From Chloroflexota bacterium (GTDB lineage: Bacteria; Chloroflexota; Dehalococcoidia; Lucifugimonadales; UBA3495), in NCBI GenBank assembly GCA_028873965.1, contig JAPPMU010000003.1, positions 1-64,000 of the forward strand: a DNA stretch of 64,000 bases. The letters run 5' to 3'. How positions within the stretch are numbered: position 1 is the first letter of the stretch; each line of letters begins with the position of its first letter. Positions 3,660 through 55,016 of this stretch are shown piece after piece. The position numbers and the translations under genes were made by a program. The notes beneath the pieces were generated by a model. It saw nothing but the letters and a program-made list of their open reading frames with translations, was not told the origin of the DNA and made no database searches.

Positions 3660-4922
3660 CTACCCGGTCGGGGTGGAGGCCAGTTGCCGACCCGCCGCCC
3701 GGCCCAGGCCGAACCACAGCGTCACCAGCAGGCACAGCCCCGCCGATATGCCGATCGCCGTGGGCCAGCCCACCCAGCCCGTCGCGGCGGCCAAGGGCAG
3801 CGCCCCCAGGTTATGGAAGCCCGGAGTGAAGTGCAGCACGCCCATCACGCGGCCCCGGATCTCGCCGGGCGCCGACAGCTGCAGGATGGTGGTGGCCAGG
3901 GGCCAGACGGTTCCCAAACTCAACACCCCCACCAGCAGGAACAGCGCCCACGACACCCAGAACCAATTCGACCACGCGAACAGAGTGAGGCAGACGCAGA
4001 ACGACACCAGGCACACCAGCAGCCAGCGATACAGCCACGCCCGGTGCATGAACGTGATGATGAAGTTGCCCAACAGCGACCCGACCCCGGAGGCCAGCAA
4101 CAGCAGGCCGGCCCCGGAAGCCTCGGTGCCCAGGTGTTCCTTGGCAAAGGCCGGGATCACCGCCAGGTGGCTCATGCCGAACCCGCCCCACGCGCAGGCC
4201 AACACGAGAACGGTGAGCAGCACCGGCGCCCGCCAGATCTGGACCATTCCGTCGGTGAAGTTCCGCAGTATCGGTTGGGTTGCCGGTCTCGTTTCGCGTG
4301 GCTCAGGCCGGATCCTTGAAATACACACCACGCTAATCACGTAGCACGCAACGTTCGCCAGCAACGCTGCGCTGATGCTCCAGTGGTCGATCATCGCGCC
4401 CACCAGTGGCGGCCCCACTATCCGGCCGATATGCACTGCGGCGTTGAAATGCGCCACCGCGTCCAGCAGGGTGCGCTGGTCCACCAGGTCGGCAACCATC
4501 GCCACCCGCGCCGGCTGGTTCAACGCCTGCAACGAGCCCAACAGCGCGGCGGCCACGTAGATGTGCCAGACCGCGATGACCCCCGCCAGCGACAGCGCCG
4601 CCAGGGCCGAAATCGACGCACCCACCGCCAATTGGATCGTGATCAGCAATCGTTTGCGGTCGACCCGGTCGGCGATCACCCCGCCCACCATGAGCAGCCC
4701 GACGTTGGGCAACCCGTAGAGGAAGAGCACCAAACCCACCTGGGTGCTCGATCCGCTGACCTCCAGCACCAGCCAGCTCAGCACGAGCATCTGCGCTCCC
4801 TGGGACAGGGCCTGAGTGGCGGAACCGGTCCAGTACCACCGGAAGTTGTAGGAGCGCCACGGACTCAGTATCCGCACCGCGTACGACGCGGCGCGGCTCC
4901 GGGCGGCCTGGGTGTCTAGCAC
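3660..4922 (-). CDS. MFS transporter (EntS/MFS_3-like)
   Basis: The 420-residue protein starts at a GTG codon and opens with SPWRSYNFRWYWTGSATQAL, the usual start of this MFS_3 group. About 12 membrane segments are visible, with the loop signature GGVIADRVDRKRLL. As for its convergent neighbour at 2070, the substrate is unknown. The two are only distantly similar and not a recent duplication. The ends of the two genes are separated only by a MITE. Confidence 0.85.
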   Translation of the reverse strand: MLDTQAARSRAASYAVRILSPWRSYNFRWYWTGSATQALSQGAQMLVLSWLVLEVSGSSTQVGLVLFLYGLPNVGLLMVGGVIADRVDRKRLLITIQLAVGASISALAALSLAGVIAVWHIYVAAALLGSLQALNQPARVAMVADLVDQRTLLDAVAHFNAAVHIGRIVGPPLVGAMIDHWSISAALLANVACYVISVVCISRIRPEPRETRPATQPILRNFTDGMVQIWRAPVLLTVLVLACAWGGFGMSHLAVIPAFAKEHLGTEASGAGLLLLASGVGSLLGNFIITFMHRAWLYRWLLVCLVSFCVCLTLFAWSNWFWVSWALFLLVGVLSLGTVWPLATTILQLSAPGEIRGRVMGVLHFTPGFHNLGALPLAAATGWVGWPTAIGISAGLCLLVTLWFGLGRAAGRQLASTPTG

Positions 4923-4931
4923 CGCCGGACC

Positions 4932-5080
4932 CTCACGCGTACCCAGTTTGTCATCGCGAGGAGCGCAGCGACGTGGCGATCTCGTTCCCGTGGCGGCGTT
5001 CGTTGCCTTGACGAGATTGCCGCCCCCGCATCAAGTGCGGGGTTGCAATGACAACACGGGCGAAACTGGGTACGCGCGAG
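4932..5080. mobile_element. MITE, family A (copy 1), 149 bp
   Basis: The ends are CTCACGCGTACCCAGTTTG and its near-complement AAACTGGGTACGCGCGAG. The flanks CCGCCGGACC (4922-4931) and CCACCGGACC (5081-5090) match at 9 of 10 positions, consistent with an aged 10-bp target duplication. The left duplication falls in the first codons of the MFS gene, so the insertion abuts its start. Confidence 0.75.
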
Positions 5081-5221
5081 CCACCGGACCTCGACGGCAA
5101 CCGCTGAAGACGCCGCAGCCTTCCACCGCTGTACAACTCGCCGCGCGGGCAACCGGGTGCGCAACACATTGACCACGGGGTGATTGTAATTCATCCCGGC
5201 GCGCGATGCGCCGCATGGAGC

Positions 5222-5358
5222 CTCATGCGTATCCGTTTTGTCATCGCGAGGAGCGAAGCGACGTGGTGATCTCGTCCTAGCAGCAGCGTTACCTGCCCCA
5301 ACGAGATTGCCGCACCTCGCTCGCAATGACCGTTCAGGTCAAACTGGGTACGCGTGAG
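5222..5358. mobile_element. MITE, family A (copy 2), 137 bp with perfect 10-bp target duplication
   Basis: The ends are CTCATGCGTATCCGTTTTG and AAACTGGGTACGCGTGAG. The identical 10-bp sequence CGCATGGAGC is present at 5212-5221 and 5359-5368. The interior is palindromic, with a TCATCGCGAGGAGCGAAGCG arm, and has no coding capacity. Confidence 0.85.
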
Positions 5359-5722
5359 CGCATGGAGCGGCTTGGGGAATGTTCGGGTACGTCTCTGCCT
5401 CGATCAACCACTCGCGATGCCGGGTGCGGATCAGGGCGTGTCCGGGCCTACGTCAGTCGCCAGGAGCCGCTTTAGCATTCTGCCATTGTTGGAACATGGA
5501 CGGTGGCCTTTTTGCGTATGTGATTTCACAATAGAAAACATTGACGAATTGAGCCATTCGGGCTAGCATGGCGCGCAAATTAACGATTTGCTGTCAACCG
5601 CCGTCGCGCGCCTGAAGAAACGGCCGATTCGGCACGCGCCGCCGTCAATCCCGGTAGGAAAACTCACTGCCGGGATGTTGGCAGTGAGCCAAGGCGAATA
5701 CGCGTATCCAGGAGGTAACAGA

Positions 5723-7129
5723 ATGGCAGAAAAGGACATTGCTTTGATGGCGCACCTCATGCGCCGCGCCGGGTTTGGTGCAACGTATGAGGAGCTCGAG
5801 GCACGCGCCGCCCAAGGCTACGAGGCCACGGTCGAAGAGCTGCTGAATCCGGAATCCCAGCCAGCCATTCAGGACGACATCCTGATGCGCTACCAGCCGC
5901 AGTGGGTTTCCAAGGCGGGCCTCGAGGGCCAGCAGGAAGAGTGGACCTACCGGATGATCAACACCAAGCGGCCGCTTGAAGAGAAGATCGCCCTGTTCTG
6001 GCACCACATCTTCTGCACGGGCCACGCCAAGTGCGAGTATCCCAAGCAGCAGAACATCGAGCTCGACATGTTCCGCACCCTGGGGTTCGGCAACTTCGAG
6101 GAACTTCTCATGGGCCTGTCCATGGACCCGGCCATGGTGTTCTACCTGGACAACTGCATGAGCCACAAGGACGCCATCAACGAGAACTGGGGCCGGGAAC
6201 TGCTGGAACTCTTCTCCCTGGGCGTTGGCATGGACGGCAACGCCAACTACTCCGAGGACGACGTCAAGGAAGCCGCCCGCGCCTTCACCGGCTGGACCGT
6301 GACCAACTCCATCCCGCGCTACCCCTACGGGAAGTACGAGGCGGCGTTCATCTATGATCCGTCCGACCACGACTACACCGAAAAGACGTTCCTGGGCGAG
6401 ACGGGGACCTTCAACGGCGAGGACATCGTCAAGATTGTCGCCCGGCAGCCGGCCGCGGCCCGGTTCGTCGCCCGGCACATGTACAACTTCTTCGTTGCCG
6501 ACGAGCCCCAGGTTCCCGCCTGGCAGAACACGCCGCCGCGGGATCCGGAAGCCATCAAGATCCTCGAGGACGAGTACTTCCGCTCCGGCTACGACATCCG
6601 GTCGATGCTGCGCGTGCTGTTCAACTCCGACTTCTTCAAGAACGCCCGGTTCGAGAAGGTGAAGAGCCCCACCGAGACCGTGGTCAGCACCATGCGCCTG
6701 GTCGGCGATTTCGACATGCCCAGGCCCGGCCTGAACGCCATGACCCTGACCATCCGCTACATGGGCCAGGACCTGCTCAACCCGCCCACCGTGGAGGGCT
6801 GGCACACCGGCCGCGAGTGGATCGACAGTGGCACCCTGGTCGAGCGGATCAACTTCACCGCCGACGCCGTGGGCGACACCTCCCACCGGGGCGTGCAGGC
6901 CATCATCAACCGGCTGGGCTCCCAGGGCGATACCATTTCGTCGGAGCAGCTGGTGGACGGCTGCCTGCAGCTGCTGGGCCACTACGAGCTGGCCGACGTC
7001 ACGCGCAACGAGCTGGTTGCGCTGGCTGACAGCGAAGGCGAGCTGCGGACCGGCACCGACGAGTTCGGGCAGCGGGTCGGCCAGATGTTGCAGTCCATCG
7101 TGGCGACCACCGAGTACCTGTTCGAGTAA
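5723..7129 (+). CDS. DUF1800 domain-containing protein
   Basis: I place the start at the ATG at 5723, preceded by a strong AGGAGG site; an upstream TTG extension is part of the leader. The 468-residue protein begins MAEKDIALMAHLMRRAGFGA, the classic DUF1800 opening, and contains EKIALFWHHIFCTGHAKC and the NENWGRELLELFSLGVG segment. DUF1800 proteins are nearly always next to DUF1501 proteins, as here (7147). Their biochemical function is unknown. No signal peptide is seen, although many relatives are exported. Confidence 0.9.
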   Translation: MAEKDIALMAHLMRRAGFGATYEELEARAAQGYEATVEELLNPESQPAIQDDILMRYQPQWVSKAGLEGQQEEWTYRMINTKRPLEEKIALFWHHIFCTGHAKCEYPKQQNIELDMFRTLGFGNFEELLMGLSMDPAMVFYLDNCMSHKDAINENWGRELLELFSLGVGMDGNANYSEDDVKEAARAFTGWTVTNSIPRYPYGKYEAAFIYDPSDHDYTEKTFLGETGTFNGEDIVKIVARQPAAARFVARHMYNFFVADEPQVPAWQNTPPRDPEAIKILEDEYFRSGYDIRSMLRVLFNSDFFKNARFEKVKSPTETVVSTMRLVGDFDMPRPGLNAMTLTIRYMGQDLLNPPTVEGWHTGREWIDSGTLVERINFTADAVGDTSHRGVQAIINRLGSQGDTISSEQLVDGCLQLLGHYELADVTRNELVALADSEGELRTGTDEFGQRVGQMLQSIVATTEYLFE

Positions 7130-52080: not shown

Positions 52081-52452
52081 GGCTCAATCATAGCACGACG
52101 CGGTGATGACGCCGGATATGTCAGGGCAATCGCGTCTAAATCGGTGATGTTGGCGGCGTTGGAGCTATGGCCCACGACAACGGCCGGGAGTGAATTTTAC
52201 CGGGATAAACAGGATGAACGGGATGGACGGGATATGGTTCGGTTAATGCGGTCGATCAATTTTCGGGCGTTGGGGCGTGGGGAGAGCCGCCGGTTACAAA
52301 TCGAGAGACGTACTCCGCGCCTGATTATCGATCATGTTGCAGACGCGATTGCCCGGTAAGGCCCCGATCTCGTTTGCCCTACCGCCGGCCAAAATGCTAT
52401 ATTGATCGAAGTTTGCAGCCTGGGCCTGCGCCAAAACCGGAGGGATAAACAG
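52081..52452. other. 372-bp intergenic region
   Basis: The spacer between divergent galU and the greA-like gene has no gene that I can support. It holds a short degenerate tandem at 52202-52233 (GGGATAAACA, GGATGAACG, GGATGGACG units), of a type common between bacterial genes. Confidence 0.5.
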
Positions 52453-53271
52453 TTGACCAACGACCAGCACCTCTCGATTTCGGAAGGGATCAGTAGGTTT
52501 GTAGAACATCTAAAAGATAGCAAGCAAGCAATGCAGGGCCAGCAGGAATTGCTGCGTTTTCAGGCCAGAATAGGGAAAGACAAAGCGCTCGCTACGCTTC
52601 ATGCCATAGAGGTTGGCGAATACGCCAAGTGGACCACCGAGAACGTGGAAGACCCCTCATCAAGGCTTGATCCCGTAAAGAAATTCTTGACGTTTGCCAA
52701 CAAGCGCGGCTGGACCGAGATCAGCCTGGCGCGCTATGCAGCGGCTCCTCGGCGCAACCGGCGACGGTTCGCAGCCGGAGAGACCGGATCGCGGGCGGCG
52801 GGCACTCCCAGCGCACGGCTGAGCCAGGAGCGTCACACTGAATTGCAGGCTGAATTGCAGCGCTTGCGGGAAGAGGTCCCGCAGATACGCGAGGCGATCC
52901 GCCTGGCCCGGAGCGATGGCGACGTGCGGGAAAACGCTCCGTTGGACGCGGCCCGAGAGCAGCAGCAACTGACGGAACGACGCATACGGCAACTGGAAAA
53001 TGACCTGGCCAACGTGGAGATCGTTGACGCGGCTAACGCCGACACCGAAAAGGTGAGCATCGGGTCGCGGGTGACGCTGCACGAGTTGACGTCAAAGCAG
53101 CAGCGGGTTTTCACGTTGGTGGACGTGCGCGAAGCAGACGTCTCCGCCGGGAAAATATCCACGGTCTCCCCCATCGGGCAGGCCCTGATGGGACGGAGCG
53201 CGGGCGAGGAAGTGACGATCACGACGCCCAGGGGCGCGGTAGAGTACCGGATTGAGGGGATCGGCGGATAG
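52453..53271 (+). CDS. greA: GreA-type transcription elongation factor with N-terminal extension
   Basis: The 272-residue protein starts at TTG with GGAGGG eight bases upstream. Residues about 118-180 form the GreA coiled coil, with the tip sequence DGDVRENAPLDAARE where the acidic residues (Asp, Glu) of GreA are conserved. Residues 190-272 form the FKBP-like domain with SPIGQALMGRSAGEEV. The first ~110 residues are extra compared with standard GreA (about 158 aa) and match no domain that I know. GreA-type factors release stalled RNA polymerase. Confidence 0.85.
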   Translation: MTNDQHLSISEGISRFVEHLKDSKQAMQGQQELLRFQARIGKDKALATLHAIEVGEYAKWTTENVEDPSSRLDPVKKFLTFANKRGWTEISLARYAAAPRRNRRRFAAGETGSRAAGTPSARLSQERHTELQAELQRLREEVPQIREAIRLARSDGDVRENAPLDAAREQQQLTERRIRQLENDLANVEIVDAANADTEKVSIGSRVTLHELTSKQQRVFTLVDVREADVSAGKISTVSPIGQALMGRSAGEEVTITTPRGAVEYRIEGIGG

Positions 53272-53331: not shown

Positions 53332-53799
53332 TCAGCCGTTGATGTCGGCCACGGCCTGCAGGATCGTCTCCGGGTCGGGCAGCGTACCGGGTTGGTACGT
53401 CTCGCGATACCGGATCACGCCCTGCGGATCGACGACGATCACGGCGCGCGTGCCGGCGCCACGCTCGTCGTTCCAAAGATCGTATGCGGTGGTCACCTGG
53501 CCCTTGGGATGCCAGTCAGACAGTTCGGGGTAGGGCAGCCCACCCATGGTGGTGGTCCAGGCCCGATGAGCGGCTACATGGTCACAACTGATACCCAGCA
53601 CCTGGGCATTCAACTCCTGGAACCGCTCGTTGAAACGGCGGAAGGAGGTGGCCTGGTCCGTTCAACCGCTGGTGAAGTCCAGGACGTGGAAGGACAGAAC
53701 CACGGTGTGGGTGCCGCGGTAGTTGCTCAATGAGATGTCTCCGTCGTTGGGGGACGGGAGAGTGAAGTCCGGCGCGGTGTCGCCGATTTGACCTGGCAT
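53332..53799 (-). CDS. AhpE-type peroxiredoxin with in-frame TGA (probable selenoprotein)
   Basis: Translated through one TGA, the 155-residue frame is a complete AhpE-type peroxiredoxin: MPGQIGDTAPDFTLPSPNDG, HTVVLSFHVLDFTSG, then the TGA at codon 46 (53662-53664), then TDQATSFRRF, VLGISCDHVAAHRAW, YPELSDWHPKGQVTTAYDL and RAVIVVDPQGVIRYRET. Codon 46 is exactly where peroxiredoxins have the peroxidatic cysteine (FTxxC). No other stop or frameshift occurs. GAGGAG lies before the ATG. Selenocysteine is the best explanation, since a random nonsense mutation would rarely hit this one codon; selenium machinery is not in this window. A hairpin downstream of the TGA (53614-53647) may be the bacterial SECIS. 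Confidence 0.82.
53614..53647 (-). promoter_or_regulatory. Candidate bacterial SECIS hairpin after the TGA
   Basis: On the mRNA, CUCCU pairs with AGGAG and CCGC/CGU pairs with ACG/GCGG (with one bulged A), with apical loop UUCA. The stem begins 14 bases after the TGA and the loop lies about 27-31 bases after it, in the usual range. The loop lacks the typical early G, so the exact fold is unsure. Confidence 0.4.
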
Positions 53800-53957
53800 C
53801 TAGCTTCTCCTCAGTTGTGCCGGGCGGGCGGCAGGCGACGGCTGGCCCTCCGGCGGGGTTGGCAGGGATTATACCGCACGCCGGGAACGGCGGGCACGGG
53901 CGATGCCGCAGGTCACAGCTGCGGGCAGGTCCGTGGCGCGGGATGGTCCCTGGTCCC

Positions 53958-55016
53958 ATGCTATACTCCGCGACGCCGCAGCCGGCGGCCGGGGCGCTCG
54001 GATTGGATGTTGTGTTTGACCGGGGGATCTATCTCCCGGAGATGAGACTGTGGTTGGATGCCCTGCGCAAGCAGGACACTTCGGTCATCTCCCACGCCCA
54101 TTCCGACCACACGGCGAGGCATCGCCGCCCGATGCTCACCCCCGGCACCAGATTGCTGTTGGGCGACTACCTGAGCCGATCCGAGCCGGTGGAGTTGGAG
54201 TTCGGCCGGACTTTGGATTTTCCGGATTGCTCCATCACCTTCTACCCGGCCGGCCACTGTTTGGGATCTGCCCAGACGCTGGTGGAGAGCAAGGCGACCG
54301 GAGAACGCCTGCTGTACACCGGAGATCTGCGGGTGCAGCCGTCGCCGATCAACGAAGGGCACCAAGAGATTCCCTGCGACGTGCTGGTGATTGAAAGCAC
54401 CTACGGCCGTCCCGACTACGTTTTCCCGCCCCAGGAGGAGGCCATCGGCACCGCGATGCGCGTGGTGGCCCAATGGCTCGACCAGGGAGCCGTACCGGTG
54501 GTGATGGGTTGGAGATTGGGCAAAGCGCAGGAAGCGCTATACCACCTGCTGGCGGCCGGTTTCCGCGTGGCGTGTGAGGAGAGCGTGTACGAGATTGCGC
54601 GGAAGTACGAGGAGGCCGGCGTGGACTTCCCGGGTGAATACCGCTTTTGTGACGGAGAGTTCCGGGAGGGTGAGGCGCTGCTCTTCCCGCCGGGCAGGAA
54701 ATCGCGGGAAACGGTTCACCGGATCACGCCGGAACGTCGGCCCGTCCGGTACCTGGAGCTGACGGGCTGGGCGGCCGGAGCCGGGGTCAAGCCATGGGGT
54801 CGCGGCCGGCCGGGCGACGCCAGCCTGCCCTACAGTGACCACGCCGACTTCAACGACCTGGTCGCCTACGTTGACGCGGTACGACCCCGTCAGGTGTACA
54901 CCGTGTTCGGGTTCCCGGACCTGGCGGAGCACCTGCGGCGGAAAGGCTACTCGGCCATCCACCTGGGGAAGAACGCCACAGACGCTGACCGCGCGTTCCA
55001 GATGCCGCTGCTGTAG
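53958..55016 (+). CDS. MBL-fold exonuclease-like protein (ligase-associated type)
   Basis: The 352-residue protein has the metallo-beta-lactamase metal motif SHAHSDHTARH, then AGHCLGSAQTLVE, LLYTGDLRVQPSP, ESTYGRPDYVFPP and the late SDHADFNDLVAYVDAV histidine. This is the beta-CASP-like group known as putative DNA ligase-associated exonucleases. The gene is alone; no ligase is near. The start is uncertain: ATG codons at 53943 and 53958 are both possible. It is divergent from the peroxiredoxin. Confidence 0.82.
   Translation: MLYSATPQPAAGALGLDVVFDRGIYLPEMRLWLDALRKQDTSVISHAHSDHTARHRRPMLTPGTRLLLGDYLSRSEPVELEFGRTLDFPDCSITFYPAGHCLGSAQTLVESKATGERLLYTGDLRVQPSPINEGHQEIPCDVLVIESTYGRPDYVFPPQEEAIGTAMRVVAQWLDQGAVPVVMGWRLGKAQEALYHLLAAGFRVACEESVYEIARKYEEAGVDFPGEYRFCDGEFREGEALLFPPGRKSRETVHRITPERRPVRYLELTGWAAGAGVKPWGRGRPGDASLPYSDHADFNDLVAYVDAVRPRQVYTVFGFPDLAEHLRRKGYSAIHLGKNATDADRAFQMPLL

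Follow-up and report, generated by a model that had tools for sequence, protein, structure and literature searches.

Peroxiredoxins with a peroxidatic selenocysteine (Sec, U) have already been described, and the cited parts of earlier surveys count 12 (PMC1794560) and 91 (PMC5029168) of them and, in GOS ocean samples, 253 'Prx TxxU' selenoproteins (PMC2398784). The cited part of a further study places Prx above its group 'Predicted with high confidence', cites the Eubacterium acidaminophilum enzyme and calls the PxxxTxxU motif highly conserved and crucial (PMC13188914). For AhpE peroxiredoxins, a signature PxAF(T/S)xxC, with V or I before the catalytic residue, is given in the part of PMC5302317 cited here.

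A first-pass annotation of the DNA analysed here, a stretch of 64 kb (in full, the window), had proposed a probable selenocysteine at the peroxidatic position of an AhpE-type peroxiredoxin. It had also pointed out that Sec peroxiredoxins are known, in agreement with the TxxU, PF00578 proteins in the cited parts of PMC2398784 and PMC13188914; because such proteins are described, the window gene adds to a known kind. Selenocysteine is supported here by a conserved TGA and by sel genes in the same genome bin, and we consider it very probable that the gene encodes a one-domain peroxiredoxin with Sec as its peroxidatic residue, UGA46 being read by way of SelB, tRNA-Sec and a hairpin.

A peroxiredoxin frame crosses an in-frame TGA

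The gene had been placed at the correct coordinates, to which we add the strand, minus (Table 1). As first described, its frame holds a single TGA, at codon 46 in the context FTSG-TGA-TDQ, the sole in-frame stop between the start and the terminal TGA; the start and ribosome site that had been called good are an ATG preceded by GAGGAG. The frame was also said to be intact to its natural stop, and we found no further stop or frameshift, with the Pfam AhpC-TSA domain (PF00578) spanning residues 5–131 across the TGA at 121.3 bits (cut-off 26). This domain, with the catalytic T43 and R118 around the peroxidatic residue, identifies the product as a peroxiredoxin.

Table 1. Features of the selenocysteine peroxiredoxin locus, in window coordinates.
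Feature	Position	Strand	Detail	Basis
Sec peroxiredoxin gene	53332..53799	-	155 residues, U46	Translation, Pfam, AlphaFold2 model, closest structures
ATG start codon of Sec peroxiredoxin gene	53799-53797	-
TGA codon 46	53664-53662	-	Read as selenocysteine, peroxidatic position	Same aligned codon TGA in 79/126 class homologues
Terminal TGA stop of Sec peroxiredoxin gene	53334-53332	-
Shine-Dalgarno-like GAGGAG before ATG	53807..53812	-
Candidate SECIS hairpin	53614..53647	-	Begins 14 nt after TGA	MFE -15.3 kcal/mol over 54 nt
GreA/GreB-domain protein	52402..53271	+	Convergent neighbour, extra N-terminal part	Pfam; same neighbour in L057
Metallo-beta-lactamase/RMMBL protein	54009..55016	+	Divergent neighbour, start chosen by eye	Pfam; same neighbour in L057

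Sec UGA codons can terminate translation at low selenium. The codon might then act as a selenium-dependent switch, with a short product, stop or re-initiation having a role of its own when selenium is scarce, and re-initiation is conceivable at a 93-residue frame with a TTG start (53332-53613, minus strand) that opens 16 codons past TGA 46. We hold this to be improbable: given the span of the AhpC-TSA domain, neither the 45-residue front part nor the 93-residue back part contains it whole.

An AlphaFold2 model of the full-length protein had a pLDDT of 96.8 and AhpE as its closest structures. The top PDB sequence match was Mycobacterium tuberculosis AhpE (E 1.3e-26), in which the Cys of FTGIC, which we take to be the catalytic Cys, aligns with codon 46. 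The designation 'AhpE-type' thus stands for nearest sequence and fold, but not for the active-site signature in the cited part of PMC5302317, the window protein having V-L-D-F-T-S-G-U.

The same TGA recurs at the aligned codon of homologues

We searched 393 genomes of the same class, drawn evenly from the larger group, at a match threshold of 1e-20; the window protein had a match in 120 of them, and each of the 126 matches altogether was read. The codon aligned with codon 46 was TGA in 79 and encoded Cys in 47, as TGC (36) or TGT (11), so that the alignment with Cys homologues advised in the first-pass annotation sets the in-frame UGA against their redox Cys. One of the Cys matches (L140) had a TGA elsewhere in its frame and not at the aligned codon. 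Another homologue (L146, G374:C10) was seen to carry two in-frame TGA codons, only one of them at the catalytic position.

Named relatives were collected by a contig scan with a 29-row alignment and one degenerate peptide pattern, from which the best 80 of 582 were kept, 35 with Sec and 45 with Cys. The closest among these best 80 were L056 (67.5% identity) and L057 (67.3%), the latter from Chloroflexi bacterium NAT575; each of the two has the TGA and also C72. T43 and R118 were present in all 79 class Sec genes and in all 35 Sec genes of the best 80 of 582 named relatives. A TGA homologue with the motif WTPVU was observed in a named strain, Sulfobacillus harzensis DSM 109850 (L061). The record of L056 bears the title Proteobacteria though it is the nearest relative among the best 80 of 582, and its gene neighbours differ, which may reflect a transfer or a misnamed bin; further downstream in the same orientation, its ORF 4205-5938 resembles a flavoprotein disulfide reductase by eye. 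The sole same-family genome of the class sample (G370) gave no peroxiredoxin match at 1e-20; tRNA-Sec was present in it.

Because TGA recurs at the same aligned codon (79/126 in the class; 35 of the best 80 of 582 named relatives), a chance TGA is excluded, and the earlier judgement that a random nonsense mutation is unlikely is borne out. One base change does turn a Cys codon into TGA, and with Cys in 47/126 homologues a pseudogene with a recent nonsense mutation of a catalytic TGC or TGT is an alternative. We think it very improbable, as the TGA is shared with separate records, L056 and L057 included, at identities of 67% and beyond, and the frame has no other stop and no frameshift. The comparison with close relatives that had been recommended came out the same way: the nearest have TGA rather than TGC or TGT, without decay on either side.

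Substitution rates also stand against a pseudogene, with dN past the TGA as low as ahead of it. Between the window gene and L056, dN was 0.24 before and 0.26 after the TGA (dS 2.4 and 1.9); for L057 the values were 0.25 and 0.23 (dS saturated and 1.4), and for L058 0.39 and 0.38 (dS 0.8 and 1.0). Purifying selection is as strong past the TGA as ahead of it, which would not be seen in a broken gene. An error of sequencing or assembly might be suspected in what is probably a metagenome bin, of 70 contigs and with 7.3% contamination, but such an error cannot explain why 79 class genomes, together with 35 named records among the best 80 of 582, have TGA at this one codon, and we give it next to no weight, the least of any alternative.

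In a quick tree of 207 rows, made with the catalytic column masked and having several long branches, the window gene fell within a 12-row Sec-only clade (SH-aLRT 96). Sec and Cys states required 9 changes on this tree, 3 of them forced by supported branches, versus 68 in shuffles.

The genome bin carries the machinery for Sec decoding

The window belongs to a genome bin of 3.88 Mb (96.9% complete). The first-pass annotation had advised a search for selA, selB, selC and selD and had named absence of selB and tRNA-Sec as fatal to its reading. All four genes were found in the same bin above their cut-offs: selA at 542.2 bits, selB at 356.9 bits and selD at 377.6 bits (each above the curated cut-off), and tRNA-Sec at 66.4 bits (gathering score 47) with anticodon TCA by ARAGORN. 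The selD gene (L021) carries an in-frame TGA of its own (SHCAG-U-AAK), at what we take to be the place of the catalytic Cys17 of E. coli SelD. The tRNA-Sec was seen to follow a thioredoxin-domain match in the same orientation, starting 31 bases past its end (G000:C27:49074-49496). Within the 64-kb window there was no sel gene, and an Rfam scan of it had no hit at gathering scores.

The composition of the sel contigs argues against their being contaminants. GC around the sel genes was 0.61-0.65 versus 0.625 for the window, and tetranucleotide correlation with the window was 0.977 for selB, 0.966 for selA, 0.956 for selD and, lowest, 0.909 for the 3-kb piece with selC (4-kb pieces of the window: mean 0.957, minimum 0.939). 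Contamination is less likely because both measures resemble those of the window.

Across the class sample, tRNA-Sec (E 1e-9 or better) was found in 75/79 TGA genomes versus 21/41 Cys-only genomes (Fisher p 4e-8, a guide only, as the genomes are related and the class was evenly drawn), in 174/273 genomes without a peroxiredoxin match and in 270/393 overall. The four TGA genomes without it (G005, G183, G232 and G308) were re-searched at the default threshold, and their best places read as tRNA-Arg, -Ser, -Gly and -Leu; with about 290-470 contigs and 80-90% completeness, missing contigs are the likely explanation.

Sec genes as a group show stronger folding from the UGA onward

The 54 nt from the codon were folded and their energy compared with 200 synonymous recodings. 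Mean z was -1.65 in 114 Sec genes versus -0.30 in 92 Cys genes (p 9e-15), and the difference held after thinning to 77 Sec and 77 Cys rows (p 6e-11); a first run with 65 Sec and 45 Cys rows had given medians of -1.74 versus -0.24 (p 3e-7). A control stretch 150-204 nt downstream showed no difference (mean z -0.27 in Sec and -0.29 in Cys genes). The window hairpin by itself was modest, with z of -1.14 by synonymous recoding and -0.80 by dinucleotide shuffles; the window copy's own hairpin is weak evidence, and it is the TGA genes as a group that stand out.

The bacterial SECIS model, in the cited part of PMC13188914, places a loop of 3-9 nt at 16-37 nt from the UGA, requires G within the first two loop positions and sets the MFE at no more than -7.5. 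The best fold of the window copy is a 12-bp hairpin; its likeliest top loop is CAAC, without the G of this model. An alternative fold (probability 0.36) puts a GUUUCAAC loop 25 nt past the UGA and fits the G rule and spacing as given there. A single common SECIS structure was considered and rejected: a hairpin drawn from L057 did not separate all 114 Sec genes from Cys genes (p 0.10; 0.05 after thinning). In 16 Sec genes hand-picked after their folds had been seen, the same hairpin formed 128/176 pairs, more than in any of 1000 sets of synonymous recodings (mean 84, maximum 107).

Further candidate selenoproteins in the bin

TGA was found in 6/11 AhpC-TSA matches of the bin, the window gene included, and in 3/3 SelW/Rdx matches. 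In nine further genes the TGA falls on a redox or catalytic position: L240, L242, L243, L244 and L245 (AhpC-TSA), L246, L247 and L248 (SelW/Rdx) and L021 (SelD); the motifs beyond the window gene and selD are WUPHC, WUPYC, CUVNC, TUPPF, WUPEC, YCVPU, YCWDU and YCVPU. Together with the window gene, these nine make ten candidate selenoproteins from the few families searched, and the bin looks rich in predicted selenoproteins. One of them, L244 (1501-1935, minus strand; G000:C43:56642-57076), reads GSYT-U-PPF, matches the iodothyronine deiodinase model of Pfam (T4_deiodinase, E 3e-29) and is a candidate bacterial deiodinase-like selenoprotein. Among the matches listed from the open-licence literature, the phrase 'selenoprotein-rich' did not occur with Chloroflexota or Chloroflexi. 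A 2006 survey, in the part cited, counts three selenoproteins in Chloroflexi, and the main text of a 2026 review of prokaryotic selenoproteomes does not contain 'chloroflex'.

By contrast, TGA occurred in 0/6 thioredoxin-family matches of the bin (three of these six places being also among the AhpC-TSA matches) and in 0/21 CMD-family matches. Reading through an in-frame TGA would also be expected if UGA were a sense codon organism-wide, with no part for selenium. This variant code is extremely improbable: TGA is confined to redox positions of the AhpC-TSA and SelW-like matches in these counts, the window gene itself ends in TGA, as do 3/12 hand-picked neighbouring ORFs, and a tRNA-Sec with a TCA anticodon is present. 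The window has 32 TGA read-through frames, mostly in gaps, the Sec peroxiredoxin among them; a Pfam scan of 10 others gave no match.

Neighbouring genes

Both neighbours lie on the opposite strand (Table 1), so no partner gene is suggested in the window. L057, with the same TGA, keeps both in the same orientation (MBL/RMMBL 55% and GreA-domain 43% identity), whereas tblastn of the ORFs of L056, L058 and L059 against the window showed no matching neighbour. The gene order shared with L057 suggests a Chloroflexota host for the window. A conserved operon was accordingly rejected, L057 being the only one of these four relatives with the neighbours in common. About 135 additional N-terminal residues of the GreA/GreB protein had no Pfam match and seem to us reminiscent of a recombinase core-binding domain; L057 has a similar long protein.

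A predicted Sec active site without the conserved proline

The proline of PxxxTxxC/U, counted seven residues before the catalytic residue, is V39 in the window protein, which scored 67.8 bits against NCBIfam peroxi_PrxU (NF040737; curated cut-off 270). This proline was missing from 34/79 Sec versus 11/47 Cys class homologues, and from 5/35 Sec versus 0/45 Cys genes of the best 80 of 582 named relatives. As it is also missing in other Sec and Cys homologues, it is not strictly defining. The idea that a missing proline marks Sec genes, suggested by the best 80 of 582 named relatives, was refuted by the 11/47 class Cys genes, and independent pairs on the tree, only 3 of them on supported branches, gave no support for such a link; the commoner loss in Sec genes may be explained by shared ancestry. 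Among the matches listed from the open-licence literature, no title describes the clade of the window gene. Tentatively, and with more doubt than belief, we suggest that this clade may be so selenium-dependent that the conserved proline was given up, V, I, L, A, R or T sufficing with Sec, and that the product may act as a 1-Sec peroxidase lacking this proline, in a Chloroflexota-like lineage that is rich in selenoproteins and has ten or more of them, this one included. An active site without the proline makes it possible to test directly what Sec permits in a peroxiredoxin.

Proposed function and comparison with known systems

We propose that SelB would deliver Sec-tRNA, the selC product after charging by way of selA and selD, and that UGA46 would be decoded as Sec, with the mRNA hairpin just past the codon aiding insertion; at the terminal UGA, which lacks this context, translation would stop. 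The U46 selenolate, held by T43 and R118, would attack peroxide to give a selenenic acid, then reduced by an outside thiol. Such a thiol must serve in 35/81 fully read Sec homologues, because their domain has no cysteine; in the window copy, C72 could act as an internal partner.

This kind of Sec gene is present in 79 of 393 class genomes. Ordinary gene calling would probably cut the window gene at codon 46 or label it broken, and a widespread peroxide defence may for that reason be hidden in annotation.

The other candidates of the bin with a redox-site TGA, of the TlpA/Prx-like UxxC, SelW-like CxxU and deiodinase-like kinds, belong to other families or subfamilies, none being closely related to the window gene. 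M. tuberculosis AhpE (Rv2238c), to which the window protein is nearest in sequence and fold, is a 1-Cys peroxiredoxin. With the bacterial Sec peroxiredoxins (TxxU, PF00578; E. acidaminophilum and GOS), as described in the cited parts of the literature, the window protein shares the AhpC/TSA domain, the peroxidatic Sec and the T three residues before it. It differs from them in lacking the PxxxTxxU proline and in falling below the peroxi_PrxU cut-off, the GOS and E. acidaminophilum proteins being likened to it by their description in those parts.
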